Virus record (IMG/VR): IMGVR_UViG_3300010371_000090
Span: 1-30,285 of that record
Length of the DNA: 30,285 nt
Direction: 5' to 3' (one strand)
Origin: a virus
This document shows, piece after piece, positions 530-14,525 of the stretch. The translations under genes were made by a program, and so were the position numbers. The notes beneath the pieces were generated by a model. The model saw only the letters and a program-made list of their open reading frames with translations. It had not been told where the DNA came from and ran no database searches. Numbering within the stretch: position 1 is the first letter of the stretch; each line of letters starts with the position of its first letter.

Positions 530-795
530 TTCGATTCCTCGCCAGCCTCAGCCGGCACAGTGGGAAGTGGTGCCGGTACGGTGACCGGTATCTTGTTCGG
601 CTTGCCATGCAGAGCCAGCAGCACGGGACGTCCATCGACCAAGCGCACCTTGGGTGGCGCCGCGCCAGCGTTCTCGCGATCCCGCATGTCGGCAGAATGG
701 CGAAGGCTGTAGCGGGCCATGCGCTCGGCAGCTGACGGCTGGTGACACTGCGCCCAGCGATCGCGCGGGAAGAAAATGGCGGAGAGAATGTTCAT
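526..795 (-). CDS. small hypothetical phage protein (89 aa)
   Basis: No family recognised. I chose the internal ATG at 795 because it has a good ribosome site (CGGAGG about 5 nt upstream) and overlaps the upstream stop as ATGA. The open frame extends further back to 975, but that part would overlap the upstream gene. The protein starts MNILSAIFFPRDRW and has a basic middle (ERMARYSLRHSADMRDREN). The C-terminal half contains PPKVRLVDGRPVLLALHGKP and a Pro-rich tail. The weak N-terminal hydrophobic run is too short to call a membrane segment. Confidence 0.65.
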   Translation of the reverse strand: MNILSAIFFPRDRWAQCHQPSAAERMARYSLRHSADMRDRENAGAAPPKVRLVDGRPVLLALHGKPNKIPVTVPAPLPTVPAEAGEESK

Positions 796-1034
796 GCGAC
801 CTCCGGTGAAAAGGTGCTGACCGCCGCACGCCCAGGGGGAGTGGCTACCGGCGGGAGGACCGGCGCGGAATCCAGCGTTGAAAGTGGTTTGCCGGCAGCG
901 AATGGAATGGCGCGAACGACAGGGGTACGAGCCTCTCGTGCGGATGTGGCAGCCTGTTTCGTTGCGAGCATGCATTCGATCTCGCGCATCAGGTCGTCAA
1001 GCGGAAGGCTCGCGAAGGCGATAAGGTCGGTCAC
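792..1034 (-). CDS. small hypothetical phage protein, GTG start (80 aa)
   Basis: No family recognised. The open frame could begin at ATG 1103, but that would overlap the upstream gene by 73 nt. GTG at 1034 has GAGG 8 nt upstream and overlaps the upstream TGA as GTGA, matching the coupling pattern of the whole operon, so I take it as the start. The N-terminal half is an acidic helix (TDLIAFASLPLDDLMREIE), followed by an Ala/Pro/Val-rich tail of low complexity. Its stop overlaps the next ATG (ATGA at 792-795). Confidence 0.65.
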   Translation of the reverse strand: MTDLIAFASLPLDDLMREIECMLATKQAATSAREARTPVVRAIPFAAGKPLSTLDSAPVLPPVATPPGRAAVSTFSPEVA

Positions 1035-1300
1035 AGGCAATGCCTCAAGCTGTGGCTCATGGCCGTCATGCCGCAACGCGAGCACGTCGCGCTCCATGTG
1101 CATCCGTCATCGGACTCGTAGGGTGTGCCATTCCAATCGTGCTCGCATGGGCCGCCGGTGCCGCAGGCGCAGTAGCAGGCAGAATCATCACGCAAACTGC
1201 ATTCAGCGATTTCCCATCCATCGGCGCGCATCTTCGCCTCCCATGCGCGGCGTTGTGCGTTGCGTTCTGCGCGCAATGCCTCGAAGTCGTGGTCGGTCAT
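1031..1300 (-). CDS. small Cys-rich, probable zinc-binding phage protein (89 aa)
   Basis: The N-terminal third is a charged helix (TDHDFEALRAERNAQRRAWEAKMRADGW). The rest is rich in Cys and His, with a CYCACGTGGPCEHDW stretch and a later CTWSATCSRCGMTAMSH stretch, consistent with one or two structural zinc sites. The 'DGCTWSATCSRCGMTAMSHSL' type of ending recurs in small accessory proteins of temperate phages. I infer zinc binding from Cys spacing only; no function is known to me. ATGA overlap with the upstream gene supports the start at 1300. Confidence 0.75.
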   Translation of the reverse strand: MTDHDFEALRAERNAQRRAWEAKMRADGWEIAECSLRDDSACYCACGTGGPCEHDWNGTPYESDDGCTWSATCSRCGMTAMSHSLRHCL

Positions 1301-1587
1301 GACTTGGCCTCGCGGGCGGAGAGCATGGCATCGGCAACGCGATATGCGTCAGTAGCTATGCCATCTGGCCACTTCTCGTCGGGCGCATATTCGTTTTCGC
1401 GCCATCCGATGAACAACTCTCTGTACGCCGCGCCGATCACTTTCCCGGCCAAGTAGTCGCGCAGGGTCATGCCGCCGACATAGAAGTCGTTATTCCCGAA
1501 CTGGTACGGCACGGCATCACCGGTATCGCGGTTTACAGACACCTTGGCTGGAAACGCCGGCCCACCATTTTTGATCTGCTCGCTCAT
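1297..1587 (-). CDS. conserved small phage protein, NGGPAFP...GMTLRDY type (96 aa)
   Basis: The sequence carries the NGGPAFP block near the N-terminus, GMTLRDYLAGKVIGAAYRE in the middle, and a C-terminal DAYRVADAMLSARE helix. This combination is common in proteins of unknown function from early or accessory regions of temperate phages of Gram-negative bacteria. I place the start at ATG 1587, which overlaps the upstream stop (1584-1587), rather than at the farther in-frame start at 1647. It is probably soluble and cytoplasmic. Function unknown. Confidence 0.85.
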   Translation of the reverse strand: MSEQIKNGGPAFPAKVSVNRDTGDAVPYQFGNNDFYVGGMTLRDYLAGKVIGAAYRELFIGWRENEYAPDEKWPDGIATDAYRVADAMLSAREAKS

Positions 1588-1925
1588 TTGCCTTCCCTCC
1601 ACGCATCCACAGGCGCCGGCTTGCACCGATCCGGCGTCTGCGCCCACGCCTTGAAGTCAGCGCGAACGGAGTCGATCAGGTCGTCATACCGATCGCACAG
1701 GATGTCGTCGCGCTCGCTCTTGTCCTTGCGCGGCAGCCCGCGATCCATGATCAGCGAGAGCAGGCCCGCGACCGATGACGGGCACGGACGGCCGCTCAGC
1801 CAGTTGTCGAAGCAGTCCGGCTCGGCGACCATTTCGTCGATGATCGAATCATCGTCGGCGGAGTAGGCCGGGTCGTCGGCGACGGGCGATTGCAGCCAGA
1901 GGTCGTGGGCAGACAGGGCGCTCAT
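1584..1925 (-). CDS. hypothetical acidic phage protein (113 aa)
   Basis: No family recognised. The N-terminal half is very acidic (DDPAYSADDDSIIDEMVAE), followed by a CFDNWLSGRPCPSS segment. The C-terminal half, DDILCDRYDDLIDSVRADFKAWAQTPDRCKP, is probably helical. ATG at 1925 gives ATGA overlap with the upstream gene; the frame is open much further upstream, but those codons lie antisense to or inside other genes. No membrane segment. Confidence 0.7.
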   Translation of the reverse strand: MSALSAHDLWLQSPVADDPAYSADDDSIIDEMVAEPDCFDNWLSGRPCPSSVAGLLSLIMDRGLPRKDKSERDDILCDRYDDLIDSVRADFKAWAQTPDRCKPAPVDAWREGK

Positions 1926-2095
1926 GGGATGCGCTCCATTTCTTCGATCGTGTAGCCGCGTTTCTCGAAGTTTTCCCATGTGCCGTAGGGCATATGGGCG
2001 GCGTCTTTCAGCAGCTTCTTGATCGCCTGCTCGCGCGTGTTCGACGCGAGCCAGAAACACAGCGTGCCGCCCGGAGTGCACGGTACGAATTTCAT
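1922..2095 (-). CDS. small hypothetical phage protein (57 aa)
   Basis: ATG at 2095 overlaps the upstream stop as ATGA. The protein starts MKFVPCTPGGTLCFWLASNTREQAIKKLLKDAAHM and continues with PYGTWENFEKRGYTIEEME. The pattern 'W-x-NF-x-KRGY-x-IEE' recurs in tiny phage proteins of unknown function. Two Cys residues are present, with no clear zinc site. The longer in-frame extension up to 2416 is Arg-rich shadow sequence, and I reject it. Confidence 0.7.
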   Translation of the reverse strand: MKFVPCTPGGTLCFWLASNTREQAIKKLLKDAAHMPYGTWENFEKRGYTIEEMERIP

Positions 2096-2376
2096 GCGAT
2101 CCACTCCCACAGCTTCGGCAGCCACGCGACGAACTTGATCGCGCCATACGTGCAGCCACCGGAGAACGCCAGCATCCCGATCCACGCCAGCCAGAACTTG
2201 ACCGGCGGCAGCGAGTCGTCGCCGCGCTCCCACGTCGGCCGGTGATCCAGACTGGCGATGTAGTCCAGCTGATCCCGGACGCGCTGGGGGACGTTGCGAC
2301 GGGCAAACGCGGCAGACTCGGCGGCATGCTCGCGGGCTTGCTGCAATTCGCGGCACAGAAGGGCGTGGCGATTCAT
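2092..2376 (-). CDS. small single-pass membrane protein (94 aa)
   Basis: ATG at 2376 overlaps the upstream stop by 4 nt. The first 50 residues are a charged helix (LCRELQQAREHAAESAAFARRNVPQRVRDQLDYIASLDHR). A hydrophobic stretch, FWLAWIGMLAFSGGCTYGAIKFVAWL, near residues 62-88 is long enough for one membrane span, leaving a very short C-terminal tail. This predicts a tail-anchored inner-membrane protein with its coil in the cytoplasm. Role unknown; early membrane proteins of phages sometimes act in host takeover or exclusion, but nothing here shows that. Confidence 0.7.
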   Translation of the reverse strand: MNRHALLCRELQQAREHAAESAAFARRNVPQRVRDQLDYIASLDHRPTWERGDDSLPPVKFWLAWIGMLAFSGGCTYGAIKFVAWLPKLWEWIA

Positions 2377-2573
2377 GCCGCCACCCCCGCATCGACCTGC
2401 GCCGCTTCCGCTGCACTCAGCAGCTCGGCGGCGAGTTGAGCGGCTTCTTCGCGGGATAGGCTGATCGCCGCGTCGCCGCTCTCGATCCTGATCGCCTGCC
2501 ACGATTCGGCATGGACGCTGCCGCGTCGAACCCTGATGGGCGTGTCGAAGGTGCTTGTGAAGATGCTTGCCAT
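2373..2573 (-). CDS. first gene of the leftward early operon (66 aa, unknown)
   Basis: ATG at 2573 has a good ribosome site (GGGAGA, 7 nt upstream) and is the first start after the left operator cluster, so it is probably the promoter-proximal gene of the leftward transcript. The sequence contains FDTPIRVRRGSVHAESWQAIRIESGDAAISLSREEAAQLAAELLSAAEAA: a beta-rich first half and an Ala/Glu-rich helix at the end. It shows none of the Arg-rich N-terminal motif of lambda N-type antiterminators. Function unknown. Confidence 0.75.
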   Translation of the reverse strand: MASIFTSTFDTPIRVRRGSVHAESWQAIRIESGDAAISLSREEAAQLAAELLSAAEAAQVDAGVAA

Positions 2574-2605
2574 GTTTCGTTCTCCCGGTTGGCTGATGCG
2601 TCGAA

Positions 2606-2667
2606 CTTGCAGCAAGTGTAAGACTAGTCTTGCAGCAAATGCAAGGATGTATTGCAGCAAACGCAAG
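2606..2667. promoter_or_regulatory. left operator cluster: three 17-bp repressor-site candidates
   Basis: Three imperfect inverted repeats lie at 2606-2622 (CTTGCAGCAAGTGTAAG), 2629-2645 (CTTGCAGCAAATGCAAG) and 2651-2667 (ATTGCAGCAAACGCAAG), 22-23 bp apart, about two helical turns. Read on the minus strand they match the right-hand sites, with consensus CTTGCATTTGCTGCAAG. They lie between the repressor gene and the first leftward gene, where a lambda OL equivalent would sit. An AGACTAGTCT palindrome (2621-2630) fills the gap between the first two. No clear -35/-10 pair could be assigned. Confidence 0.85.
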
Positions 2668-2692
2668 GAGATTTAATTGCCGTTCAGAAAAG

Positions 2693-3016
2693 TTAGCCTC
2701 GTCTCGGCGCGAGCGCGGCTTGAGCTATCTCACGATCACGCTCAGCCGCTTCTCGAAAGTCACGCAATAAGGCGCGTTCCTTTTCGTTCTGCGCAACATC
2801 TTCGAGGTCAAGTAAGGCGGCGACAGCTGCGCCTGTAGCCTGGTTTAATTCTCTTAGCATGGTCACGGTTACGTCCCCTGTCACGTTGTTCAACAATCGG
2901 GACACCTTCGCCTCTGACCATCCTGTTGCTCTTGCGAGATCAGCTGGGATCATGCCTATGGCGTCCATCTGCAAGCGCAGATTCTTCAGTGAAATCTTGG
3001 GATCTTCTCGTTTCAT
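2693..3016 (-). CDS. short HTH repressor of the lysogeny switch (CI-like)
   Basis: The protein has about 107 residues with a helix-turn-helix region MIPADLARATGWSEAKVSRLLNN, followed by GDVTVTMLRELNQATGAAVAALLDL, the usual layout of XRE/Cro-CI type DNA-binding domains. It then ends in a charged helix (EKERALLRDFREAAERDREIAQ). It lacks the S24 autopeptidase domain of lambda CI, so RecA-stimulated self-cleavage is not expected and induction must differ. It sits on the minus strand between two operator clusters, divergent from the cro-like gene. I took ATG 3016 (AAAGG 9 nt upstream); an in-frame ATG at 3052 would add 12 residues. Confidence 0.85.
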   Translation of the reverse strand: MKREDPKISLKNLRLQMDAIGMIPADLARATGWSEAKVSRLLNNVTGDVTVTMLRELNQATGAAVAALLDLEDVAQNEKERALLRDFREAAERDREIAQAALAPRRG

Positions 3017-3079
3017 GGCGTGAGACCTTTGTTGGAGCAAGTCTTCTGCCATGTCGCCATCCGGGACGCTACTACCGTA

Positions 3080-3129
3080 CTTACATTCAGTGCAAGATGA
3101 CTCTTGCGTAGCCTTGCATTTGGTGCAAG
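3080..3129. promoter_or_regulatory. right operator cluster between repressor and cro-like gene
   Basis: Two good 17-bp sites lie at 3080-3096 (CTTACATTCAGTGCAAG) and 3113-3129 (CTTGCATTTGGTGCAAG), with an extra CTTGC half-site at 3103-3107. They match the left cluster read on the opposite strand. The last site ends 3 nt before the cro-like ATG at 3133, so a bound repressor would cover the transcription or translation start. The region must hold both the rightward early promoter and the repressor promoter, but I could not assign hexamers with confidence. Confidence 0.8.
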
Positions 3130-3132
3130 ACT

Positions 3133-3345
3133 ATGCTCATGCAAACCTTCTCCGATTTCTGCGAATGGATGAAATCCCAGCGCCGGGCAGCTGATGCGCT
3201 GGGCATTTCCGAGTCCACGGTAAGCCGCATGGCGAACGGCAAGATGCCGATTACGCCCGAGATCGCGGAGCGCGTCGAAGACGTCTCCCACGGTCTGTTC
3301 AAGAAAGAACGGGTGCTCTGGCCCGACAAGAGCGAGGCCGCCTAA
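3133..3345 (+). CDS. Cro / YdaS-like HTH regulator (70 aa)
   Basis: A small DNA-binding protein with the helix-turn-helix RRAADALGISESTVSRMANGK, then MPITPEIAERVEDVSHGLFKKERVLWPD. This resembles the YdaS family of phage Cro-like regulators ('ADALGIS.STVSR...G...ITPE.A..IE...'). It is divergent from the repressor and is the first gene of the rightward early operon. It has two candidate starts, ATG 3133 and ATG 3139, and neither has a visible ribosome site, so the message may be leaderless or nearly so. Expected role: repress the repressor promoter and damp early transcription after the lytic decision (inference from position). Confidence 0.85.
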   Translation: MLMQTFSDFCEWMKSQRRAADALGISESTVSRMANGKMPITPEIAERVEDVSHGLFKKERVLWPDKSEAA

Positions 3346-3381
3346 CCCATGAATGCATCGAGTTTTCATGGGATTTTTTTT
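3346..3381 (+). terminator. Rho-independent terminator after the cro-like gene
   Basis: A perfect 8-bp stem, CCCATGAA (3346-3353) pairing with TTCATGGG (3365-3372), encloses an 11-nt loop and is followed by A and eight T (3374-3381). It starts directly after the cro-like stop codon. It would stop much of the rightward early transcript before the replication genes, in the position of lambda tR1. Confidence 0.9.
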
Positions 3382-3416
3382 CGCACGAAGCCGACCTTCA
3401 ACCAAAGGCAATTCCC

Positions 3417-3833
3417 GTGAGCGCCATTGCTGGTCAACTTGAACTTCGTGTCCGCAGGCCATTGAAGCCTATACCGGATGCCGATTACGCGAAGCTTCGC
3501 AGCGAGGCGGAAGCGGTCAAATATGCCTGCGAAAACAGCGGCCTACTGGACAAGTCGATAGCTATCGAGGCCGACATTGATCCAGCCATTCTATCCAAGG
3601 CCAAGAGCGGCCAAGCGCGCCTGAATGACGAAAAGCTCAACGCGCTGATGGATGCGACAGGCATCGAGGCTCCGATGTTTTCCATGGTTCTGCGGCGCGG
3701 TTACGACCCGCGCAGCCTGCGCAGGCTCGAAACCGAAACCGAACGTCAATTGCGCGAGGCACGGGAACAGCTTGACGCCGAGCGATTGAAGGTGCGCGTC
3801 CTGACCGCTGCATTGCGCGGGGAATCCGCATGA
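3417..3833 (+). CDS. phage transcriptional regulator with HTH and C-terminal coil (CII-position, 138 aa)
   Basis: GTG at 3417 has AAAGG 8 nt upstream. The region VKYACENSGLLDKSIAIEADIDPAILSKAKSGQARLNDEKLNALMDATG looks like a Cro/CI-type helix-turn-helix domain. It is followed by MFSMVLRRGYDPRSLRRLETETERQLREAREQLDAERLKVRVL, an extended coil. Proteins of this type ('SGQ..L....L..LMD.TG...RRGYDP.SLR..E.E.E') sit in the CII position of many phages of Burkholderia and relatives, so it is probably a DNA-binding early regulator. Whether it activates like CII is not shown. The last codons overlap the next ATG. Confidence 0.75.
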   Translation: MSAIAGQLELRVRRPLKPIPDADYAKLRSEAEAVKYACENSGLLDKSIAIEADIDPAILSKAKSGQARLNDEKLNALMDATGIEAPMFSMVLRRGYDPRSLRRLETETERQLREAREQLDAERLKVRVLTAALRGESA

Positions 3834-4033
3834 CCGAGCGCCAGCCACACATCGACTTCCGCGCCATGAACACCGTGGCGCCCGACTCGCTGGACTTCAC
3901 CATCCAGCCCGACGACAGCCTGGTCGCCTACATCGCCGACCGGCTGCCCAACGCCAAGGCGCGCAAAGACCTGCAATCGCAGCTCGACGACAACGAGCAC
4001 CAGATTCTTCGCTGGGTGGAGGCGATGTCATGA
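3830..4033 (+). CDS. small hypothetical phage protein (67 aa)
   Basis: ATGA overlap with the upstream regulator supports the start. The sequence has an acidic, polar N-terminal half (NTVAPDSLDFTIQPDDSLVAYIADRLPNAKARKDLQ) and a C-terminal helix (SQLDDNEHQILRWVEAM). No known domain, membrane segment or Cys is seen. Its stop overlaps the next gene as ATGA, so it is part of a tightly coupled early block. Confidence 0.7.
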   Translation: MTERQPHIDFRAMNTVAPDSLDFTIQPDDSLVAYIADRLPNAKARKDLQSQLDDNEHQILRWVEAMS

Positions 4034-4206
4034 CACTCGCCAAGCGCCGATTGATCGCTGCCGGCACCACGCTGGCCTGTTGCGCAACCTTTTTCTGGCT
4101 CTCCGGACTGCCGTGGGTACGCAGCCCCGGCATGGCGTTCTACTGGTTCTGCGCCTGCGTGTGCGCCGTCATCGTGGCGTTTGTCGGCGTGGGGAGCAGG
4201 CGATGA
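4030..4206 (+). CDS. tiny two-TM membrane protein (58 aa)
   Basis: A 58-codon gene fixed by ATGA overlaps at both ends (4030-4033 and 4203-4206). It begins MTLAKRRLIAAGTTLACCATFFWLSG, a positively charged start followed by a membrane span. After a short WVRSPG turn comes a second span (MAFYWFCACVCAVIVAFVGVG) ending in SRR. Two spans with both ends cytoplasmic by the positive-inside rule are predicted. The five Cys residues are unusual for its size. It could be an early membrane-acting protein; no family recognised. Confidence 0.7.
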   Translation: MTLAKRRLIAAGTTLACCATFFWLSGLPWVRSPGMAFYWFCACVCAVIVAFVGVGSRR

Positions 4207-4340
4207 ACGATGTGATCGCGTGGGTGGTTTACGACCGCGAAACCCGCGAACTAGTGATCGTCTGCAAGAGCCGGGCAGAGGCCCGGAAGCTCGCGGCGGA
4301 GTGCGATGGGGAAGTGGCTGTGGTGCGGAGGGCGCGGTAA
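4203..4340 (+). CDS. tiny hypothetical protein (45 aa)
   Basis: Starts at ATG 4203, overlapping the upstream TGA, and ends at TAA 4338-4340, whose last base is the A of the next ATG. The sequence MNDVIAWVVYDRETRELVI then VCKSRAEARKLAAECDG then EVAVVRRAR suggests a small beta-alpha-beta fold. No family recognised. The longer frame starting at 4080 is shadow sequence inside the previous gene. Confidence 0.65.
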   Translation: MNDVIAWVVYDRETRELVIVCKSRAEARKLAAECDGEVAVVRRAR

Positions 4341-4696
4341 TGGACGGTCAGACCGCCTTCGACTTCGCCGCCGCACGCGCTGCCGGTGACCGTGGCATGC
4401 GGATCGCCATCGAACGCGCCGAGCTCCTGGACGACACGTTCCCGGCTCGCGCCGAGGCGTTCATCTACGCCTACGCCCGCACGCACTTCGAGTTCACCAG
4501 CGAACAATGCACGGCCGCCGCTGAGCGCGAGGGCATCGTTCCGCTATCCGATGGCAGGGCATGGGGCGCGCCGATCAAGCGCGCCGTGTCCAAGGGCGTC
4601 ATGGAGGCCACAGACCGCACAGCGCCCAGGCTCAAGGGTCACGGGTCGCCGGCTGTGGTTTGGGCGTCACGGGTTTTCGATGGGGGTGGGGAGTGA
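4340..4696 (+). CDS. conserved protein upstream of phage replication initiators (118 aa)
   Basis: ATG 4340 shares its A with the upstream TAA. The protein begins MDGQTAFDFAAARAAGDRGM, then a long helix with DTFPARAEAFIYAYARTHFEFTSEQC, then DGRAWGAPIKRAVSKGVMEATD, and ends with RLKGHGSPAVVWAS. This order ('FTGE..T.AA......DDRAWG....RA...G.I...G......GHG.P..VW') is a recurrent small protein just before DnaT/O-like genes in many phages, probably a helical winged-helix type nucleic-acid-binding protein. I know no experimental function. Confidence 0.75.
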   Translation: MDGQTAFDFAAARAAGDRGMRIAIERAELLDDTFPARAEAFIYAYARTHFEFTSEQCTAAAEREGIVPLSDGRAWGAPIKRAVSKGVMEATDRTAPRLKGHGSPAVVWASRVFDGGGE

Positions 4697-4881
4697 TTCA
4701 GCGATTCAAGGACTGGCGCCACGAGCGCTATATCGACCGTCTGGCGCGGCGCTGCGAACGCGCACGAACGTCTGGCGACCGTCTCAAGGCGAAGTTGTAC
4801 TGGGATCTGATGGTGGTCGCGATTCGCGGCCGGTCTGTCGCCCAGGTGCGGCGGATGGAACGTGCGCAAGGGCTTGGGTGA
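4693..4881 (+). CDS. small basic hypothetical protein, GTG start (62 aa)
   Basis: GTG at 4693 overlaps the upstream TGA (GTGA), and the preceding GGGGTGGGGA run could serve as ribosome site. The product is strongly basic: IQRFKDWRHERYIDRLARRCERARTSGDRLKAKLYWDLMVVAIRGRSVAQVRRMERAQ. It is probably all-helical and could bind nucleic acid (inference from charge only). Its stop (TGATG) overlaps the start of the initiator gene by one base. Confidence 0.65.
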   Translation: MIQRFKDWRHERYIDRLARRCERARTSGDRLKAKLYWDLMVVAIRGRSVAQVRRMERAQGLG

Positions 4882-5600
4882 TGGCTCGCATACGTTCGAT
4901 TAAGCCGGAGTTTCCCCAGTCCGAAAGCATGGGTCGCGTATCGCGCGATGCCCGCCTTTTGTTTGTGATGCTCTGGCCGATTTGTGATGACCACGGTAGG
5001 ACTCGCGCGGCCTCGCGAATGCTCGCGAGCCTTCTTTTCCCCTATGACGACGATGCTCCGGGCCTGATTGATGGATGGCTGGACGAGTTGGAGCGTGAAT
5101 CGTGCATTACGCGGTATGAGGCCAACGGATCGACGTTCCTGTTCATAAATAACTGGTTGATTCACCAGAAGATTGACAAGCCCAGCAAGCCTCAATTCCC
5201 CGAACCCTCGGAGACTCTCGCGAAGCCTCGCGAGGATTCGTGTTTGGAAGGGAAAGGAAGGGAAGGGAAAGGAGAGGAGGAGAGCGCCGTCGAAACGTCG
5301 CCGGCTGAACGCAAATCAGCCAAGCCATCGGAAGCGCTCGGCACCCGACTGGCAAAAGACTGGCAACCACACCCCGACGAACTGCGGTGGGCAACAGACG
5401 CGCGCCCCGACATCGACCTGAGCGTCGAAGTCGAATCGTTCCGGGATTACTGGATCGCCAAGCCGGGCAAGGACGGCCGCAAGTCGGACTGGCCGGCGAC
5501 ATGGCGAAACTGGATTCGCCGAGCCAATCCGTCACGCGGTCACGCACCCAAAAACACGACAGCGACCGAATCCGTCGCCGCATCCAGACCAATGCCATGA
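4881..5600 (+). CDS. phage replication initiator, DnaT-like C-terminal domain (O-like, 239 aa)
   Basis: The N-terminal part (residues 1-95, starting MARIRSIKPEFPQSESM and containing SRDARLLFVMLWPICDDHGRTRAASRMLASLLFPYDDDAP) is the DNA-binding N-domain common in phage replication proteins. A charged linker of EGKGREGKGEEE type follows (around residues 118-135). The C-terminal part, with KDWQPHPDELRWA, then DIDLSVEVESFRDYWIAKPGKDGRKSDWPATWRNWIRRA, matches the DnaT C-terminal (DnaT_2) DNA-binding pattern. It should bind the origin and load the helicase encoded next (5597). Six 10-bp iterons lie inside this gene, as in lambda O. ATG 4881 overlaps the upstream stop by one base. Confidence 0.88.
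   Translation: MARIRSIKPEFPQSESMGRVSRDARLLFVMLWPICDDHGRTRAASRMLASLLFPYDDDAPGLIDGWLDELERESCITRYEANGSTFLFINNWLIHQKIDKPSKPQFPEPSETLAKPREDSCLEGKGREGKGEEESAVETSPAERKSAKPSEALGTRLAKDWQPHPDELRWATDARPDIDLSVEVESFRDYWIAKPGKDGRKSDWPATWRNWIRRANPSRGHAPKNTTATESVAASRPMP
5001..5285. other. candidate replication origin: two clusters of 10-bp iterons plus purine tract
   Basis: CTCGCG occurs at 5002, 5012 and 5022, exactly 10 bp apart. A second cluster lies at 5207 (variant CTCGGA), 5217 and 5227, again 10 bp apart. Because 10 is not a multiple of 3, the copies fall in different codon frames, so the repetition is at DNA level and not an amino-acid repeat. A GGAAGGGAAAGG-type polypurine run follows at about 5246-5285. 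Iterons inside the initiator gene are the layout of lambda ori. Not proven to be an origin. Confidence 0.6.
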
Positions 5601-6895
5601 ACCTACTCGAATCCAGCACCCTGCTCGAAATTGAGCGCTCCCTGCTTGCCACGCTGATGCTCCGGCCCAGTGATTGTCATCGTGTGCAGATCAGCGCCGA
5701 ATACTTCGCTGGCGAAACGCACGCCGACGTTTACGCAGCCATCCAATCGCAGCTGGCGGACGCCAAGCCCTTCGATCCCGTCACGCTGGCCGATCTGTTC
5801 CAGCAGGCCGGACGCAAGGCTCTGGCGAACCTGGTGATGGAGATCGGCTCCGATGCGCTGATCACCGCCGTCCCCGAGGCGTTCGCACACCGCGTCACGA
5901 CGGCATGGAGGCATCGGCGTTCCCGCGAAATCGGCATGGCTTTGGTCGAATCCACGAGCGAGAAGGCAGTGGATCAGGCCATCAATGCACTGATGAGCTT
6001 GCACGCTACGGAGCAAAACCACGAGTGGGACGCAAGACAGGCGGCGAAAGCGGCGTTTGCCGAGCTGACGACGATCTACAACAGCGGCGGGAAATTGCCG
6101 GGCGTGACAAGCGGACTGGTCGATCTCGACGACAAACTAGGTGGCTTTCATCGCGGCGACATGATCGTGATCGGCGGTCGCGCCGCGATGGGGAAAACCA
6201 GTTTCCTGCTGAGCATCGCGCGCGCGGCAGCCAAGGCGGGTCATCCGGTGGGCATCATTTCCGGCGAGCAGCCGGTGGAGCAGATGACGCTGCGCATGAT
6301 GTCGGCGGCGGCGAACATCGACTCCAAGAAATTTCGCACCGCGCAGTTCGAGGATTTCGAATGGGGCAAGCTGGCTGGTGTCGTGGGATCTACGTCCGAA
6401 CTTCCGATGTGGTTTCTGGACCGCTCTGCACCAACGATGGCTGACGTGACCCGTGTGGCAAGACGCTGGAAACACAAGCACAACATCCATGCGCTGTACG
6501 TCGACTATCTCCAGCGCGTGGGTGGGGAAGGGGAACGCAAGTACGAGCAGGTCAGTTTCGTTGCGCGGGCCATGAAGAACCTGGCCCGTGATCTGGATAT
6601 CCCGGTGATCGTGCTGGCTCAGGTCGCCCGCGCCGTGGAAAACCGCGCCGGGTCCGTGCCACGCATGAGCGATCTGTCCGATTCCAGCGAGATCGAAAAG
6701 GAAGCCGATCAGGTGCTGATGCTCTACCGCGAAGGGTATTACGACGCGCAGGCGGATCAATCCACGGCACGCGTGATCGTCGAAAAAAACCGGCACGGCG
6801 CCACGGGTTACATCGACCTTTACTGGCAGGGAAACACGATGACGTTCGGCAATTTGTCGCGCGGCTACGACGACACCTTTGGGACCAGCGCATGA
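5597..6895 (+). CDS. replicative DNA helicase, DnaB-like (432 aa)
   Basis: An N-terminal DnaB-type helical domain (IERSLLATLMLRP..., residues 10-110) is followed by a RecA-fold ATPase. The ATPase has Walker A GGRAAMGKTS at residues 193-202, Walker B ALYVDYLQ (Asp303), and DLSDSSEIEKEADQVLMLYR plus VEKNRHGATG, the usual C-terminal DnaB signatures with the arginine-finger region. It should form a hexameric ring that unwinds DNA at the fork, loaded by the upstream initiator. It is slightly shorter than bacterial DnaB. The start ATG 5597 overlaps the initiator stop (ATGA); the open frame upstream to 5387 lies inside the initiator gene. Confidence 0.95.
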   Translation: MNLLESSTLLEIERSLLATLMLRPSDCHRVQISAEYFAGETHADVYAAIQSQLADAKPFDPVTLADLFQQAGRKALANLVMEIGSDALITAVPEAFAHRVTTAWRHRRSREIGMALVESTSEKAVDQAINALMSLHATEQNHEWDARQAAKAAFAELTTIYNSGGKLPGVTSGLVDLDDKLGGFHRGDMIVIGGRAAMGKTSFLLSIARAAAKAGHPVGIISGEQPVEQMTLRMMSAAANIDSKKFRTAQFEDFEWGKLAGVVGSTSELPMWFLDRSAPTMADVTRVARRWKHKHNIHALYVDYLQRVGGEGERKYEQVSFVARAMKNLARDLDIPVIVLAQVARAVENRAGSVPRMSDLSDSSEIEKEADQVLMLYREGYYDAQADQSTARVIVEKNRHGATGYIDLYWQGNTMTFGNLSRGYDDTFGTSA

Positions 6896-7116
6896 CCGGC
6901 CCGAAAATCCACGACCGCCGAACGGAACTGCGCAGGGATATCACGAAGCTACTGCAGGGACGGTCGCTGACGGCTATCGACATCGGCGCCATGCTCGAAA
7001 AAGATCAGGCTGGCGTGGACAGCGCGCTGCGCGGGATGGAGCGGCGGGGCGAAGTGGTGCGGTTGCCGTGCCTGCCCGGGACGTGGGCGAAGTGGGCGCT
7101 GCGGGGTGGGGCGTGA
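6892..7116 (+). CDS. small winged-helix-like phage protein (74 aa)
   Basis: Starts with ATGA overlap after the helicase. The sequence DRRTELRRDITKLLQGRSLTAIDIGAMLEKDQAGVDSALRGMERRGEVVRLPCLPGTWAKWAL has the pattern of a winged helix: three helices (ending in VDSALRGMERRG), then a two-strand wing (EVVRLP...WAKWAL). This suggests DNA binding, perhaps as an accessory to replication or regulation; no specific family recognised. Confidence 0.7.
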   Translation: MTGPKIHDRRTELRRDITKLLQGRSLTAIDIGAMLEKDQAGVDSALRGMERRGEVVRLPCLPGTWAKWALRGGA

Positions 7117-7736
7117 ACGTGATCGTCGCGGGCGAAGAATCTGGAATCACGCGCGATGCGTTTGCTCGGCGCGGGCATAACGCATGGTCTTGTGATCTCA
7201 AGCCAAGCCGATCATCTGGCGGGCAGCATTATCAGGGCAGCTGGCGAGACGTGTGCTGGGAAAGCTTTGACATCGCGATCATGCACCCGGAATGCACGCA
7301 TCTTGCCGTGAGTGGCGCCAAGCACTTCGCCGAGAAGATCGCAGATGGCCGCCAACAGGCGGCGATTGCCGAATTCCTGTATCTCGCAAACGCACCTGTC
7401 TATGCGTCGTGCGTCGAGAACCCGGTCTGCATCATGTCCACACGCTACCGCAAACCGGATCAGATCGTACATCCGTGGATGTTTGGGCGCTGGGAAACGA
7501 AGGCGACCTGCTACTGGCTAAAGAACCTGCCGCGCCTTGTTGTGTTGTATCGCACGGCGGGAGAGTGCCGCGAGGCGCTAGGTCTGCCCGCTAATGCAAA
7601 GCCAGAGGCGAAAGTACACCGATGTCCGCCCGGCCCGCTGCGCTCGCAGATCAGGTCTGAATCATTCCCCGAGATTGCTGCCGCGATGGCGCTGCAGTGG
7701 GGCGGTCAGGTCGAGCGCGCACGGGTGGCGGCATGA
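7113..7736 (+). CDS. DNA cytosine methyltransferase-like protein (207 aa)
   Basis: GTG 7113 overlaps the upstream TGA (GTGA). The protein starts VNVIVAGEESGITRDAFARRGHNAWSCDLKP, resembling the SAM-binding motif I/II of C5-methyltransferase-like phage proteins. MHPECTHLAVSGAKHF is in the position of the Pro-Cys catalytic loop (motif IV), and CVENPV resembles the ENV/ENP motif VI. The loop reads P-E-C rather than the classical P-P-C, but the Cys is kept. At 207 aa it lacks the large target-recognition domain of full-size enzymes, so either a minimal enzyme or a degenerate relative is possible. Its 3' end overlaps the convergent GIY-YIG gene by 31 nt. Confidence 0.7.
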   Translation: MNVIVAGEESGITRDAFARRGHNAWSCDLKPSRSSGGQHYQGSWRDVCWESFDIAIMHPECTHLAVSGAKHFAEKIADGRQQAAIAEFLYLANAPVYASCVENPVCIMSTRYRKPDQIVHPWMFGRWETKATCYWLKNLPRLVVLYRTAGECREALGLPANAKPEAKVHRCPPGPLRSQIRSESFPEIAAAMALQWGGQVERARVAA

Positions 7737-8182
7737 ATCAGTGCAGCCGTAACCGCAGCCGTCACGCCTCTGTGCTTCTCGACCAGCTTGTCGAGCGCAT
7801 CAATGGCCACAGGATCGCGCAACACCACGGCGATCTGACGGCCACGCGCCACGCTGGCGGCTTGGCGCTGGGCGCCAGTCTTGGGGTTGATGTCACCTCC
7901 GCGCAACCCGCACCTCCCAGCTTCAGTCGAGTTAAATCCGCGCGGGGTCATGCAATCGAAATGATCCACCCACTTGGCCTCTGCGGCGTTCAAGCGAGAC
8001 GAATCACATGTCTCAATTATTTCATGCGAGAAAGCATCCCAGCCGAACTCCTTGATTGCTTTCGCCAACGCGCCGCGAGTTCCGTAGGGGTGGTTGCTTA
8101 TGCGAGCCTCGATGTTAATGCTTTGCCCGACGTATTTTCTACCGCTGGCGACGTGGGTGAGCATATAGATCCCGCAAGTCAT
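7706..8182 (-). CDS. GIY-YIG nuclease with C-terminal RHH-like tail (158 aa)
   Basis: The N-terminal 80 residues form a GIY-YIG nuclease domain: GIY at 4-6, YVG at 17-19, Arg27 in EARISNH, and candidate metal-binding Glu68 in AAEAKWVDHF. The segment HPYGTRGALAKAIKEFGWDAFSHEIIE is typical of the family. The C-terminal 40 residues (IAVVLRDPVAIDALDKLVEKH, then GVTAAVTAALIHAATR) look like a ribbon-helix-helix DNA-binding unit: strand, helix, helix. It should cleave or nick DNA at sites chosen by the tail (inference). It runs against the early operon, overlaps the RHH gene by ATGA, and is served by the promoter at 8545-8573. Confidence 0.88.
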   Translation of the reverse strand: MTCGIYMLTHVASGRKYVGQSINIEARISNHPYGTRGALAKAIKEFGWDAFSHEIIETCDSSRLNAAEAKWVDHFDCMTPRGFNSTEAGRCGLRGGDINPKTGAQRQAASVARGRQIAVVLRDPVAIDALDKLVEKHRGVTAAVTAALIHAATRARST

Positions 8183-8313
8183 AGCTTTTCCTTTTTTAGA
8201 GCAGCCTCAATGGCTCGCCTGATGAATTCGGCGGCAGGCATTCCGGTTTTTTCCTTTGCGGCCTTGAGACGCGCGATCAGTTCTTCGGGCAGGAATACGT
8301 TTGTGCGGATCAT
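8179..8313 (-). CDS. very small ribbon-helix-helix protein (44 aa)
   Basis: ATG 8313 has GAGG about 9 nt upstream. The sequence MIRTNVFLPEELIARLKAAKEKTGMPAAEFIRRAIEAALKKEKL is a minimal CopG/Arc-type fold: one strand (IRTNVFLP), helix A (EELIARLKAAKEKTG), helix B (PAAEFIRRAIEAAL). Such proteins bind palindromic operators as dimers, often their own promoter. It sits between the small gene 8318-8506 and the GIY-YIG gene, overlapping the latter as ATGA. It is probably the autoregulator of the cassette (inference). The longer upstream open frame is shadow. Confidence 0.85.
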   Translation of the reverse strand: MIRTNVFLPEELIARLKAAKEKTGMPAAEFIRRAIEAALKKEKL

Positions 8314-8317
8314 GGGG

Positions 8318-8506
8318 TCAGGCCTCTTTCGGCGGGAATATTTCGCCACCGTGCGCGGCGAGCATGGCGCGCGCCTTGGTTTCGCTGACGTAAAACGTAC
8401 CGCCGTCGGGCGCGGCATAGCACCAGCTGGCCGCTGCTTTCTCGGTTACGCGAGCAATGACCGAAGCTGGCAGGCCGGATGGGTTGAACTCAGGGCGGAC
8501 ATTCAT
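8318..8506 (-). CDS. small hypothetical protein of the antisense cassette (62 aa)
   Basis: First gene after the cassette promoter; ATG 8506 with GGAG 9 nt upstream. The sequence includes SGLPASVIARVTEKAAASWCYAAPDGGTFYVSETKARAMLAAHGGEIFPP. It is probably alpha-beta, with no known domain, membrane segment or signal peptide. The stop lies 4 nt from the start of the RHH gene, so the three minus-strand genes form one operon. Unknown function; in such a cassette it could be an effector or partner, but there is no evidence. Confidence 0.7.
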   Translation of the reverse strand: MNVRPEFNPSGLPASVIARVTEKAAASWCYAAPDGGTFYVSETKARAMLAAHGGEIFPPKEA

Positions 8507-8544
8507 GGCTTGCTCCGAAGCGGGTCAATCCCGCCGATGTGCCT

Positions 8545-8573
8545 AAAGTACACCACACATACACACGTGTCAA
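8545..8573 (-). promoter_or_regulatory. near-consensus sigma70 promoter for the antisense cassette
   Basis: On the minus strand a perfect -35 TTGACA (8573-8568) is followed by a 17-nt spacer and -10 TACTTT (8550-8545). Initiation would fall near 8538, giving a leader of about 30 nt before ATG 8506. A perfect ACACGTGT palindrome (8563-8570) overlaps the -35 edge and could be the site of the cassette's RHH protein. It lies in the short divergent gap before the RusA gene. Confidence 0.8.
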
Positions 8574-8586
8574 CAGGTATTGCCCG

Positions 8587-8991
8587 ATGAGCGCTGATCC
8601 GTCCGTCATCGCGCCCGCGCGGAATCTTGATGAGCTGGTGCTGCCGTGGCCTGACCGCGTGCTGCATCCGAACGCCAGGCCGCACTGGGCGGCCAAGGCG
8701 AAGGCTGCGAAGAAGGCTCGGCACCAGGGCAAGCTGTATGCGCTGGAATGCCGCTGGAACCGTGTGGTGTTGCCGGACGGCCCATTGCATCTGTGGATCG
8801 ACGGCTACCCGAAAGATCGACGGCGGCGTGATGCGGATGGGCTGCTTTCCAGCCTCAAGCCGTGGATTGACGGTATCGCTGATGCGCTTGGCATCGACGA
8901 CCGCCGTTTCGTGCCGCATCCGTGGGTCAAAAGCGAGACGCGGCCCGGCGGCGAAGTACGTGTCCGGATCACCGGAGGGCCACAAGCATGA
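8587..8991 (+). CDS. rusA: RusA-family Holliday junction resolvase (134 aa)
   Basis: The sequence shows an N-terminal PWPDRVLHPNARPHWAAKAKAAKKAR region (junction-binding basic part), a PLHLWIDGYPKD strand, and the family's acidic active-site helix RRRDADGLLSSLKPWIDGIADALGIDDRRF. Asp82 or Asp84 and Asp104/Asp105 are the likely metal ligands. RusA cleaves four-way junctions formed in recombination and replication, and phage versions usually lie downstream of the replication genes, as here. ATG 8587 has AGGT 8 nt upstream. It resumes the plus-strand early operon after the antisense cassette. Confidence 0.92.
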   Translation: MSADPSVIAPARNLDELVLPWPDRVLHPNARPHWAAKAKAAKKARHQGKLYALECRWNRVVLPDGPLHLWIDGYPKDRRRRDADGLLSSLKPWIDGIADALGIDDRRFVPHPWVKSETRPGGEVRVRITGGPQA

Positions 8992-9233
8992 TTCCCGTCC
9001 ACGGCGCCATCCGCCAAACGATCACCGGCGTGGAAGGCTACTGCTACCTGTGCCAGCAGCGCGGCGAACCGCTGGACGAATGCTGGTGGCCGCTCACGGA
9101 TACGTTCTTCCCAGTCAAGCATCGCGGCATGACGCGCGTGCTGCACTTCGAGAAGTTTTGCCGAGCCTGCCAGCGTGAGCGCTCATCGGTGTATGAGTCG
9201 CGCTGTCGCTCGCGCAAGCAGGTTGCCGCATGA
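8988..9233 (+). CDS. small probable zinc-binding protein (81 aa)
   Basis: ATGA overlap with the RusA gene. Two Cys pairs, CYLC (around residues 19-22) and CRAC (around residues 58-61), are spaced like a zinc ribbon. Between them lies QQRGEPLDECWWPLTDTFFPVKHRGM, then VLHFEKFCRACQRERSSVYESRCRSRKQ with a basic tail. Zinc binding is inferred from Cys spacing; nucleic-acid binding is possible. No family name recognised. Confidence 0.75.
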   Translation: MIPVHGAIRQTITGVEGYCYLCQQRGEPLDECWWPLTDTFFPVKHRGMTRVLHFEKFCRACQRERSSVYESRCRSRKQVAA

Positions 9234-9931
9234 CGACGCGCATTGAAAAAGTAATGATTGGGAATGCGACCCTTTACAAGGGAGATTGCAGGCTTGTCCT
9301 GCCGACGCTGCCCAAGGTGGATGCGGTGATTACTGATCCGCCGTATAGCGCCCGCACACACAAGATGGCAAAGACGAACAAGGGCAAAGGCCACGGTTCG
9401 AAACTGGTTACATTCGCAGCGTTGACTGATGAAGATTTCGCCGCGTGTGTTCAGCAGTGGTTTGCTGTGGCATCTGGATGGTGTGTTGCAACTTGCGACT
9501 ATCGGCATGCAAGACTGGCTTTCGACCTGCCGCAGTTTGTTAGGCTCGGTGCATGGGTGAAGCCAAACCCCATGCCGCAGATCAGCGCAGATAGGCCGGG
9601 GCAGGGATTCGAAACCGTCCTCATCATGCATGCCGGAGAGGTAAAGAAGGCTTGGAACCGTGGCGGCGGATCTGGCGTGTGGACATTTCCCGTCATTGAC
9701 GGCGCCGAAGTTTCAACGCAGAAGCCGATCTCATTGCTTCGCGCTTTTGTCTCCGACTTCACGAACTACGGTCAGAGCATCGCTGATCCATTCATGGGTA
9801 GCGGAACAACTGGGGTTGCCGCAGTAGAGCAAGGGAGAAGATTCGTAGGCATCGAACAGGACGCCGAGCGTTTCAACATCGCCTGCCGCCGCATCGAGGA
9901 CGCACAGCGCCAAGGACGGTTACTCGCATGA
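9230..9931 (+). CDS. DNA adenine/N4-cytosine methyltransferase (DPPY type, 233 aa)
   Basis: The protein begins with a strand-turn MIGNATLYKGDCRLVLPTLPKVDAVITDPPY; the catalytic DPPY is at residues 36-39. The SAM-binding motif DPFMGSGTTGVAA comes late, at residues 186-198, followed by GRRFVGIEQDAERFNIACRRIE. Catalytic motif first and SAM motif last is the beta-class order of amino-methyltransferases. It would methylate exocyclic amino groups in DNA and may protect the phage from host restriction. No cognate endonuclease is adjacent, so it looks like an orphan enzyme. ATGA overlaps flank it on both sides. Confidence 0.93.
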   Translation: MTTRIEKVMIGNATLYKGDCRLVLPTLPKVDAVITDPPYSARTHKMAKTNKGKGHGSKLVTFAALTDEDFAACVQQWFAVASGWCVATCDYRHARLAFDLPQFVRLGAWVKPNPMPQISADRPGQGFETVLIMHAGEVKKAWNRGGGSGVWTFPVIDGAEVSTQKPISLLRAFVSDFTNYGQSIADPFMGSGTTGVAAVEQGRRFVGIEQDAERFNIACRRIEDAQRQGRLLA

Positions 9932-10110
9932 CGCCCGTCCAATGCCGCACCTGCCGCCACTTCATCCCCTGGCCGTCGAACCCCGAGCAAGCCGTGGGCG
10001 AGTGCGGGCACGGGCACGGCTCTCACTTCGCTGGCGAGACGCATCGGTGCGCGGATCACGAGCCCAAACCCAAGCCCGAGGATGCGCATGATGCCGCCAC
10101 TAAAGCCTGA
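9928..10110 (+). CDS. small Cys/His protein, probable zinc binder (60 aa)
   Basis: Begins MTPVQCRTCRHFIPWPSNPEQAVGECGHG and continues with HRCADHEPKPKPED. Two Cys in CRTC plus later Cys and several His can form one zinc site. Small proteins of this kind ('C..C.HF.........G.C') are frequent in phage early operons. Overlaps the methyltransferase stop as ATGA. Function unknown. Confidence 0.75.
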   Translation: MTPVQCRTCRHFIPWPSNPEQAVGECGHGHGSHFAGETHRCADHEPKPKPEDAHDAATKA

Positions 10111-10270
10111 GGTAGCTGTGATCGACGGGAAAGTATGGCAATTCATGGGTGGCGCTTACCATCGCATGACTGCTGACGAAACGAGCGCCCTAATCCGCAA
10201 ACTGCAAAACGCTGAATCGCAGTTGCGACAAGCACAGCTTGACGAGGACGCGCATGATCCGGCCGCATAA
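10088..10270 (+). CDS. small hypothetical protein (60 aa)
   Basis: Three in-frame ATGs lie at 10082, 10088 and 10091. GAGG at 10078-10081 is best spaced for 10088 or 10091, so I use 10088. The sequence VAVIDGKVWQFMGGAYHRMTADETSALIRKLQNAESQLRQAQLDED has a short beta part and then a long helix, possibly a coiled coil. It overlaps both neighbours. No family recognised. Confidence 0.6.
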   Translation: MMPPLKPEVAVIDGKVWQFMGGAYHRMTADETSALIRKLQNAESQLRQAQLDEDAHDPAA

Positions 10271-10460
10271 AGCCCCGCGTCCCGATACCTGCTGCGTATC
10301 CGCCGACGTGCTGACCGGCCCGGAGCGCGCCTGCCAGCTGCCGAAGCTGCCCGACGTCCCCAAGCACCGGCAGGGCATCGAATGGCACTGCGGGCTGCGC
10401 TGGGGCGACATCGAATCCATTGCCTGCGTGTTGCGGGCTATCAGGGGCGACCATGACTGA
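10254..10460 (+). CDS. small hypothetical protein (68 aa)
   Basis: ATG 10254 has GAGG 6 nt upstream and overlaps the end of the previous gene by 17 nt. The sequence is HKAPRPDTCCVSADVLTGPERACQLPKLPDVPKHRQGIEWHCGLRWGDIESIACVLRAIRGD. The five Cys and two His are scattered rather than in clear CxxC pairs. No family recognised; real status rests on spacing and ribosome site. Confidence 0.6.
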   Translation: MIRPHKAPRPDTCCVSADVLTGPERACQLPKLPDVPKHRQGIEWHCGLRWGDIESIACVLRAIRGDHD

Positions 10461-10998
10461 CGAAATCTTCAACTATGCCGACCGGGCTGGATTCTTGGAG
10501 CGGCTGGGGCGATTGGCAGGACAGACGACATTCCGGGAGCCATCTGGCGGCGGATCGCCCTACAGCGCACGCATGATGACCACCGAAAACGCTCTGGTGT
10601 TGGCGCTCGCATTTGCTCGCCGGGACGTGCGCGACATCGGCCCGGAGATCGCCTACAGCATCGGGACGGGCATCCCGCATCAGCAAGACCGAGTGATGTT
10701 TTGGCTGGACATCAAGTTCCAGCGCGACGCCGGCTACGAAGGACGGCGACTGCAGCTTCGCAGCATCCTGTCCCGGCACTGCTACGAAATGGTTGCGATC
10801 GGCAAGCAGGTCACCAAACTCCCTCGCGAGTCACGGCTGCCCAAGAGTTGGGACAGTTTGCGCAACATCGGGATTGGTTGGTTGTGGATGCAGGCCGAGG
10901 CCACGATCGAACGCGCCGAATACGCCATGCGGTCGTCCGTCACCCACAAACCGCGTCAGATGGGGATTGACACCGGAAAACTAGGCGCTATCGTATAG
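10453..10998 (+). CDS. hypothetical protein at the end of the early operon (181 aa); positional candidate for late regulator
   Basis: ATG 10453 overlaps the upstream gene by 8 nt. The sequence includes ADRAGFLERLGRLAGQ, then MTTENALVLALAFARRDVRDIGPEIAYSIGTG, then QRDAGYEGRRLQLRSILSRHCYEMV, and ends in SWDSLRNIGIGWLWMQAEATIERAEYAMR. It is probably mostly helical and basic. I recognise no family. It is the last early gene before a terminator and the lysis genes, the place where lambdoid phages carry the late antiterminator Q, but I see no Q motif, so this is a positional guess only. Confidence 0.7.
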   Translation: MTDEIFNYADRAGFLERLGRLAGQTTFREPSGGGSPYSARMMTTENALVLALAFARRDVRDIGPEIAYSIGTGIPHQQDRVMFWLDIKFQRDAGYEGRRLQLRSILSRHCYEMVAIGKQVTKLPRESRLPKSWDSLRNIGIGWLWMQAEATIERAEYAMRSSVTHKPRQMGIDTGKLGAIV

Positions 10999-11021
10999 CC
11001 TGACAAAGTCACCCCAACCGA

Positions 11022-11056
11022 AAGCCTCGCCTAACCCGCGGGGCTTCTTCGTTTGT
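11022..11056 (+). terminator. probable terminator between early and lysis regions
   Basis: AAGCCTCGC (11022-11030) pairs with GCGGGGCTT (11038-11046), with one T-G pair, around a 7-nt loop, followed by CTTCTTCGTTTG, a weak U-tract. It separates the last early gene (stop at 10998) from the lysis genes. The rest of the 195-nt gap (10999-11193) shows no convincing gene or promoter. Confidence 0.7.
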
Positions 11057-11193
11057 GCGGCAGGCACGCCACGGCGCGCCTGAACAGGTCGTCTCCCCGA
11101 TCGTCCCGCACGGCCGGCGCCGTTCTCCCCAGCGGTCGCCGGCCACCTATTCATCCCGCCGCGTGCGGGTTACCACTTGCACGCGGAGGTTCC

Positions 11194-11436
11194 ATGACCG
11201 ATTCGGATTACATCAGCCTCATCGTGGGAGGCGGGAGTCTGGTTGTGATTATCGTCGGCTGGCTGTTGAAACATAGCGCGAGGCTGACCAGCACTGAGGT
11301 TCGCGTGGAAAACCTCGCCAGCAATGCCCGGGATGACCGCGAACGCGCCGACCGCCAGAACAACAACATCATGGGCGCGCTGATCCGGATCGAGGAAAAG
11401 GTGGACCGCAAGATGGACAGGCACGGGGCGAACTGA
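11194..11436 (+). CDS. small membrane protein of the lysis cassette (80 aa)
   Basis: ATG 11194 has CGGAGG 5 nt upstream; the open frame upstream to 11053 is not needed. One membrane span near the N-terminus (YISLIVGGGSLVVIIVGWLL) is followed by a long polar helix (TSTEVRVENLASNARDDRERADRQNNNIMGALIRIEEKVDRKMDRH), likely coiled coil and periplasmic or cytoplasmic depending on topology. Position just before the endolysin suggests a holin- or antiholin-related role, but one-span topology with a long coil is not diagnostic. Its TGA overlaps the endolysin ATG by one base. Confidence 0.75.
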   Translation: MTDSDYISLIVGGGSLVVIIVGWLLKHSARLTSTEVRVENLASNARDDRERADRQNNNIMGALIRIEEKVDRKMDRHGAN

Positions 11437-11921
11437 TGCCACGCATCACCCCGGAGCAGGCTGGGGGCCAGAATCGGTGTGCCTTTCTGGACATGCTGGC
11501 GCAAAGCGAGATCGGCGCGGCATTGTTGCAGCACAGCGACGATGGCTACGACGTGCTGGTTGGCTCGACAGGCCGCGCACCGCTGCTGTTCGACAGCTAT
11601 GCCACGCACCCGGACGTCTACAACCCGCGCTACAGCTCGACGGCGGCGGGCAGGTATCAGGAGTTGTTCCGCAACTGGCTGGCCTACAAGCAGCTTCTGG
11701 CGCTCCCGGACTTCGGGCCGGTGAGTCAGGACTTGATGGCGCTGCAACAGATCCGCGAGGCGCGGGCGTTGCCGCTGATCGACGCCGGCAAGCTCAATGC
11801 CGCCATTGCGCTGTGTTCGCACCTGTGGGCTAGTTTGCCCGGGAATGACTACGGCCAGCACCAGCAGGCGTTGAATGACCTGCAGACATGGTTCACCCAA
11901 GCCGGCGGCGTACTGCAATGA
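11436..11921 (+). CDS. endolysin, lambda R-like (GH104) lytic transglycosylase (161 aa)
   Basis: Strong likeness to lambda endolysin R throughout: FLDMLAQSEIG with catalytic Glu25 (lambda Glu19), GYDVLVG, STAAGRYQ, then LPDFGPVSQDLMALQQIREARALPLIDAGKLNAAI, and CSHLWASLPGNDYGQH. Lambda R is 158 aa. It cleaves the glycan strands of peptidoglycan as a transglycosylase. There is no signal peptide, so it needs a holin to reach the periplasm. It overlaps both neighbours in the lysis cassette. Confidence 0.95.
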   Translation: MPRITPEQAGGQNRCAFLDMLAQSEIGAALLQHSDDGYDVLVGSTGRAPLLFDSYATHPDVYNPRYSSTAAGRYQELFRNWLAYKQLLALPDFGPVSQDLMALQQIREARALPLIDAGKLNAAIALCSHLWASLPGNDYGQHQQALNDLQTWFTQAGGVLQ

Positions 11922-13036: not shown

Positions 13037-13080
13037 GAAGGCCCGGAAGCTGTCAGTCAGCGGCGGGCCTTCGCCTTTTC
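13037..13080 (+). terminator. Rho-independent terminator after the lysis cassette
   Basis: A perfect 9-bp stem, GAAGGCCCG (13037-13045) with CGGGCCTTC (13064-13072), encloses an 18-nt loop, followed by GCCTTTTCT. It lies only about 10 nt before the GTG of the lipase gene, so the late genes beyond need either read-through, antitermination or an unseen promoter. Confidence 0.75.
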
Positions 13081-13089
13081 TGGAATCCC

Positions 13090-13683: not shown

Positions 13684-13684
13684 C

Positions 13685-14512: not shown

Positions 14513-14525
14513 AGAGTAGCGCGCC

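Follow-up and report, generated by a model that had tools for sequence, protein, structure and literature searches.

Five related 17-bp sites flanking a small repressor gene as probable immunity operators of an uncultured phage

Gene content of the switch region

The window (the whole stretch of DNA analyzed, a 30285-base virus record) encodes two divergent genes for helix-turn-helix (HTH) proteins, a predicted repressor and a Cro-like protein, with a cluster of 17-bp sites flanking the repressor gene. The predicted features are given below. Operator sequences are read toward each operon, and mismatches are scored against CTTGCA-N5-TGCAAG.

2373-2573, minus strand: first leftward gene, 66 aa, no assigned function; downstream of the left operators
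2595-3333, no strand: putative exchangeable immunity cassette; no DNA homology to the related record G002, although both flanks align
2606-2622, minus strand: predicted operator 1 (left, proximal to the leftward gene), CTTACACTTGCTGCAAG; one mismatch to the 6-5-6 palindrome
2615-2644, minus strand: guessed left promoter, TTGCAT-18-TACACT; by eye; overlaps two operators
2629-2645, minus strand: predicted operator 2 (left, middle), CTTGCATTTGCTGCAAG; perfect 6-5-6 palindrome
2651-2667, minus strand: predicted operator 3 (left, distal), CTTGCGTTTGCTGCAAT; most degenerate, two mismatches
2693-3016, minus strand: predicted HTH repressor with a CI-like role, 107 aa; Pfam HTH_26, barely above the cut-off (23.3 against 22 bits); without S24 domain
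3080-3096, plus strand: predicted operator 4 (right, nearer the repressor gene), CTTACATTCAGTGCAAG; one mismatch to the palindrome
3105-3132, plus strand: guessed cro promoter, TTGCGT-16-AAGACT; by eye; transcription would begin at the cro ATG
3113-3129, plus strand: predicted operator 5 (right, adjoining cro), CTTGCATTTGGTGCAAG; perfect 6-5-6 palindrome, 9 nt before the cro start
3139-3345, plus strand: Cro-like HTH protein, 68 aa; Pfam HTH_3 above cut-off (run with the start at 3133)
3417-3833, plus strand: possible CII-like regulator (weak), 138 aa; PHROG 2439 'transcriptional regulator', E=0.005

Rightward of cro are the possible CII-like gene, a replication initiator gene (4881-5600), and dnaB, an order that resembles the early gene order of lambda. 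A CII role for the product of 3417-3833 is possible from the position of its gene; homologues in the related loci L012 and L010 are 57-58% identical. The initiator gene contains the repeats CTCGCGAATGCTCGCGAG and CTCGCGAAGCCTCGCGAG (5012-5029 and 5217-5234), reminiscent of the lambda origin, which lies within O. Loci L017, L022, L027, and L023 have CACCGT/ACGGTG-type repeats directly upstream of dnaB. The first leftward gene has a good ribosome site (-7.4) and is 73% identical in L010, 51% identical in L013, and partially present in L012. No match to an N-type antitermination protein was found with Pfam or PHROG among the two to five leftward genes scanned.

The cro start was set at 3139 because L005, a locus with a related Cro, is conserved from the methionine at that position. 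Both promoters are guesses, since a scan for sigma-70 promoters and terminators between 2300 and 3500 returned nothing above its threshold. With cro start codons that are our own choice, the gap from the last operator to the start is 0-11 nt in the window, L005, L010, L017, L022, L024, and L027, and in L012 the two overlap by one base. Predicted ribosome-site energies lie between -4.0 and +0.6 for cro (eight loci) and between -6.6 and -12.1 for the leftward gene (five loci). They are also weak for the repressor genes (-4.1 to +0.9 in five loci, with L017 and L022 excluded) and for dnaB of the window (+0.4), so a weak cro ribosome site does not by itself prove a leaderless message. That cro of the window is leaderless is a guess.

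Operator sites

A preliminary description had placed five shared sites here, three to the left and two to the right of a repressor gene of about 107 aa, with a left spacing of 22-23 bp. All five were located, and the open reading frame at 2693-3016 has exactly that length. The sites are 17 bp long, as are lambda operators, and mostly CTTGCA-N5-TGCAAG palindromes. Their start-to-start spacing is 23 and 22 on the left and an unequal 33 on the right. Neither the palindromic form nor the unequal right-hand spacing is mentioned in the preliminary description.

The 17-mer of the preliminary description, allowing three mismatches, matches at four positions (2606, 2629, 2651, and 3113), compared to 0.11 expected and a shuffle maximum of 2. 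A degenerate pattern picked up the site at 3080 and misses the one at 2651. Independent of that consensus, a scan for clusters of mutually similar 6-5-6 palindromes within 700 bp returned the five-site cluster as its top result, and once 2550-3200 was excluded no cluster in the window had more than 2 sites. Among 200 dinucleotide shuffles of the window, the largest cluster was 2 in 171 and 3 in 29. Sites of the window class are confined to the two gaps flanking the repressor gene, except for one stray with two mismatches.

Repressor and Cro proteins

The AlphaFold2 model of the repressor, built from a two-row alignment (mean pLDDT 77.4, pTM 0.48), has an HTH followed by two long C-terminal helices and no peptidase domain. 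The protein, only 107 aa long, has no Pfam match to the S24 self-cleavage domain, and RecA-stimulated cleavage is therefore unlikely. A Foldseek search with the model found nothing at E 0.001; its best matches (best E 0.29) were to CapH, HigA, SinR, and similar HTH proteins, amid unrelated helical folds. Matches of the sequence to solved structures are also weak (best E 0.05). The repressor has a homologue in L005 (47% identical), and an alignment search returned this contig alone, with no bacterial genome contig. No relative occurs among 18 pattern stretches from IMG/VR, and tblastn against the phage collection gave no match at E 0.01.

By tblastn, Cro weakly matches (33% identity) the Cro proteins of D3 and other Pseudomonas phages. 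There are 21 weak matches in phage records and one weak match in plasmids. The Cro search of IMG/VR returned four loci, including L005; three were read (L005, L006, and L008) and L007 was left out. L006 and L008 were dropped as Cro-linked relatives, having no matching repressor/cro layout on reading. Below-cut-off matches to the HigA antitoxin and YdaS were found, and the Cro profile matches solved structures of HigA chains (best E 0.0009) and 1rzs, 'Regulatory protein cro' (E 0.002).

In both the window and L005, the repressor and Cro share the residues S-E-x-x-V-S-R in the presumed recognition helix (helix 3). This may indicate that the two proteins use common sites, although it is weak evidence because the stretch is common in HTH proteins of this type.

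Comparison to a close relative with a different switch

The record behind locus L010, G002, is 47185 bases long. It aligns to window positions 15301-30285 in one piece at 96.4% identity and is 95% identical near dnaB. The early half is mosaic, with 15 aligned pieces and 14 unaligned stretches between them over window positions 789-15641.

Homology to G002 halts at 2594, immediately ahead of the first leftward gene's leader, and restarts at 3334. The 739-bp stretch replaced contains the five sites, the repressor gene, and cro minus its last 12 bases. The corresponding 1221 bases in G002 (L010 2356-3576) encode a 186-aa protein with a match to a PHROG of repressors (E 8e-7) and no Pfam match, together with a small protein whose matches to P22 Cro and YdaS stay below the cut-off; they also include the greater part of another small open reading frame. 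Five exact TAGG-N4-CCTA cores occur in this region, two on the left and three on the right, with no others in 13.3 kb. Neither the repressor nor Cro of the window has a significant protein match at the corresponding place in L010, whereas the flanking leftward gene and CII-like gene do. Heteroimmune lambdoid phages show replaced switch regions of this kind. As the early half is mosaic in general, the cassette swap is weaker evidence than it would be if it were the sole difference.

Operator classes in related phages

DnaB searches identified five viral loci and then, with these included, 16 viral contigs and two bacterial contigs, one from Dyella halodurans and the other assigned to Elusimicrobia by binning. 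Of these 18, nine were examined upstream of dnaB (L010, L012, L013, L017, L018, L022, L024, L027, and L028). In eight of the others the upstream sequence does not exceed about 2.6 kb, and the ninth, L032, has an identity of only 28%; L023, L029, and L032 were covered by the automatic palindrome listing alone. L005 was found through Cro, and its DnaB is only 26% identical.

Operator sets were recognized in L005 and in six of the nine DnaB contigs. In L012, the repressor gene is flanked by four TAGCAC-N5-GTGCTA sites. L017, L022, and L027 each have three exact ATGG-N4-CCAT cores and a fourth degenerate site, flanking the repressor gene. L024 has two strict sites, seen by eye and then counted, and the set in L010 is described above. 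L013, L018, and L028 have no operator set of the classes tested. In L005, a palindrome related to that of the window, CTTTCA-N5-TGAAAG, occurs at 4454, 4477, and 4974, and 10 nt separate the last of these from cro. The L005 Cro is 65% identical to that of the window, the repressor is 47% identical, and the presumed recognition helices are nearly the same, so the proteins of one phage could possibly recognize the operators of the other in part.

With strict thresholds, each class is private to its own phage type and present only in the expected region in the eight loci counted; a hybrid site in L005 is the sole cross-match. Each class pattern came from the loci in which it was counted, so these counts test the privacy of the classes and not their discovery. 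With two mismatches there are strays: for example, sites of the L010 type occur in L022 (two), in L013, L024, L027, and L028 (one each), and in the window outside the region (three), and there is one of the window type in L017. Mononucleotide shuffles (30 per locus) gave at most one site, and two once (L027), compared to two to five observed; L024, with two sites, is not clearly above chance by count. The automatic listing of palindrome clusters lacks the operators of L005, L010, and L024 because coding repeats filled it; those of L005 and L010 were also read by eye and then counted by pattern.

The L022 repressor (3820-4479) has an S24 domain and the L017 repressor (3833-4360) has no S24 match, but their HTH parts look homologous by eye. 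Given their common operator class, the class seems to follow the HTH part of the repressor.

Tandem coding repeats lie to the left of the switch in L005 (3157-3497), L010 (1713-2017), L012 (1676-1773), and L024 (1132-1346); the repeated peptides include SAATNTGNW in L005 and CSGCSGC in L012. In L013, whose DnaB is 74% identical, the leftward gene lies at 1300-2100 together with a small gene on the right whose product resembles an HTH protein by eye; no repressor-sized open reading frame was seen between the two. This phage is possibly virulent or differently controlled.

Search for the operator set elsewhere

A scan of IMG/VR for CTTGCA-N5-TGCAAG-ACTA found 25 stretches, about as many as chance would give for 16 fixed bases by a rough estimate from the approximate collection size. 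None of the 25 encodes any of the seven window proteins tried. When 11 whole records were scanned with up to one mismatch, the window had four of its sites and the L005 record had one; eight records had either no site or host sites only. Two bacterial genomes, G007 (4.7 Mb) and G008 (2.9 Mb), have 23 and 4 sites, compared to 3 and 2 for the reversed control. These are mostly far apart, with one pair in G007 separated by 120 bp. Neither the 11 records nor the 25 IMG/VR matches contained a second phage with this operator set.

An unrelated 17.2-kb record, L046 (IMGVR_UViG_3300014326_000292), has 13 exact CTTGCA-N5-TGCAAG palindromes, 0.35-3.4 kb apart, against none for the reversed control. In its 14.5-kb locus, the base that follows CTTGCA on the plus strand is a purine in each of the 18 copies with at most one mismatch, and this strand carries 14 of the 16 open reading frames of at least 150 aa. 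The palindromes could be stoperator-like or a host repeat. Four L046 proteins have no PHROG match and one has no match in phage records.

Lifestyle and host

No tyrosine integrase was found in the 30-kb window record. G002 extends 14.7 kb past the window end and encodes an integrase at 41727-42191, beyond the part aligned with the window. This phage type is therefore probably temperate. G002 was the one record over the cut-off in an integrase search of seven records, with the L005 record below it. A second search of five genomes and records found matches in the L022 record and in the Dyella genome that carries the L017 prophage (seven matches in all in that genome). In the 45-kb record of L012, searches for a tyrosine integrase and for a resolvase both found no match.

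One DnaB match of 69% suggests that the window phage may have a Dyella-like host. L018, a 9-kb contig of the Elusimicrobia MAG REEB4, has a DnaB relative (66%), the other bacterial match being Dyella. It is possibly a misbinned phage contig.

Proposed function and alternatives

We think it very likely that the five sites are the operators of a phage lysogeny switch and that the cassette swap marks another immunity group. The sites are called immunity operators, as in the preliminary description, mainly because G002 carries a different repressor, Cro, and operators in the same place; the private operator classes in relatives and the HTH repressor/Cro pair add support. In a lysogen, the 107-aa repressor would bind the five sites, presumably as a dimer. 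Bound at 2606-2667 it would shut off leftward transcription, and at 3080-3129 it would shut off rightward transcription of cro and the replication genes. The site at 3080, on the repressor side, would let the repressor regulate its own gene. Cro, which shares the S-E-x-x-V-S-R residues, would bind the same sites and favor lytic growth. A different cassette at the position of 2595-3333 would confer another immunity group.

In a variant of this model, only one of the proteins recognizes all sites, or Cro uses a single one. Cro of the telomere phage PY54 is reported to bind one operator only (PMC4488713), and the right-hand spacing of 33 bp is unlike that on the left. Set against these points are the helix 3 residues common to the repressor and Cro in the window and L005, and the presence of sites both on the two sides of the repressor gene and before cro. 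We consider the variant unlikely. It is highly improbable that the genes are instead the divergent HTH pair of a toxin-antitoxin module, autoregulated through palindromes. The HigA and YdaS matches of Cro speak for such a module, but the Cro profile also matches 1rzs, the rightward genes are phage replication genes (initiator and DnaB), sites also precede the leftward gene, a different repressor/cro pair occupies this place in relatives, and no toxin family was found among the window proteins scanned, a subset of the open reading frames. Short repeats spaced out in an early region, close to genes for replication, could also suggest iterons or some other repeated element, but we consider this reading highly improbable: the one two-mismatch stray aside, the sites are confined to the gaps beside the repressor gene, and the initiator gene has a different, CTCGCGAATGCTCGCGAG-like repeat.

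With the five sites taken as operators of the lysogeny switch, they give a sequence definition of an immunity group for an uncultured phage. It is reasonable to predict the group from the operator set, as the preliminary description had suggested, provided that it is taken as a predicted group only. The window and G002 have almost identical late genes but different switches, which makes them a natural pair for comparing operator specificity and superinfection immunity, although they also differ elsewhere in the early region. More tentatively, these phages (one of them in a Dyella contig) might form a group that exchanges operator-repressor-cro cassettes of about 0.7-1.2 kb, with at least five DNA specificities, repressors of S24 or non-cleavable type, heteroimmune sisters 96% identical in late genes, and a possibly leaderless cro within about 11 nt of the last operator. 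We noticed no published title that seems to concern this phage group and make no claim of its absence from print.

Comparison with known switches

In Pseudomonas phage D3 and similar phages, Cro is distantly related to that of the window (33% identity), whereas a tblastn search of the phage collection found no match to the window repressor at E 0.01.

Gifsy-type lambdoid prophages have non-cleavable repressors and antirepressors (PMC3121763). They are like the window in that the repressor apparently lacks a cleavage domain and heteroimmune relatives have different operators. A difference is that the window has no LexA box of the E. coli or Xanthomonas type. Antirepressor-type induction of the window phage would be a guess by analogy with these prophages (PMC3121763).

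In the immB regions of the telomere phages N15, phiKO2, and PY54, operators lie between divergent repressor and cro genes, as in the window (PMC4488713). Leaderless cI and cro mRNA is reported for PY54 (PMC4488713); in the window a leaderless cro would be only a guess, and the likeness is one of layout.

The preliminary description had proposed a lambda-like OL/OR system. It departs from lambda in having 3+2 and not 3+3 sites, a 33-bp right spacing, and a 107-aa repressor without the self-cleaving S24 domain. The layout does agree with the lambda cI-cro region (for OR, PMC4488713): the HTH repressor and Cro genes are divergent, and related palindromic operators lie in both the leftward and the rightward control regions, with putative promoters in the window. 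As in relatives of lambda, the region is replaced by one of other specificity in a close relative, in an early region that is mosaic elsewhere too. The switch follows the known lambdoid pattern and looks like an ordinary lambda-style switch.
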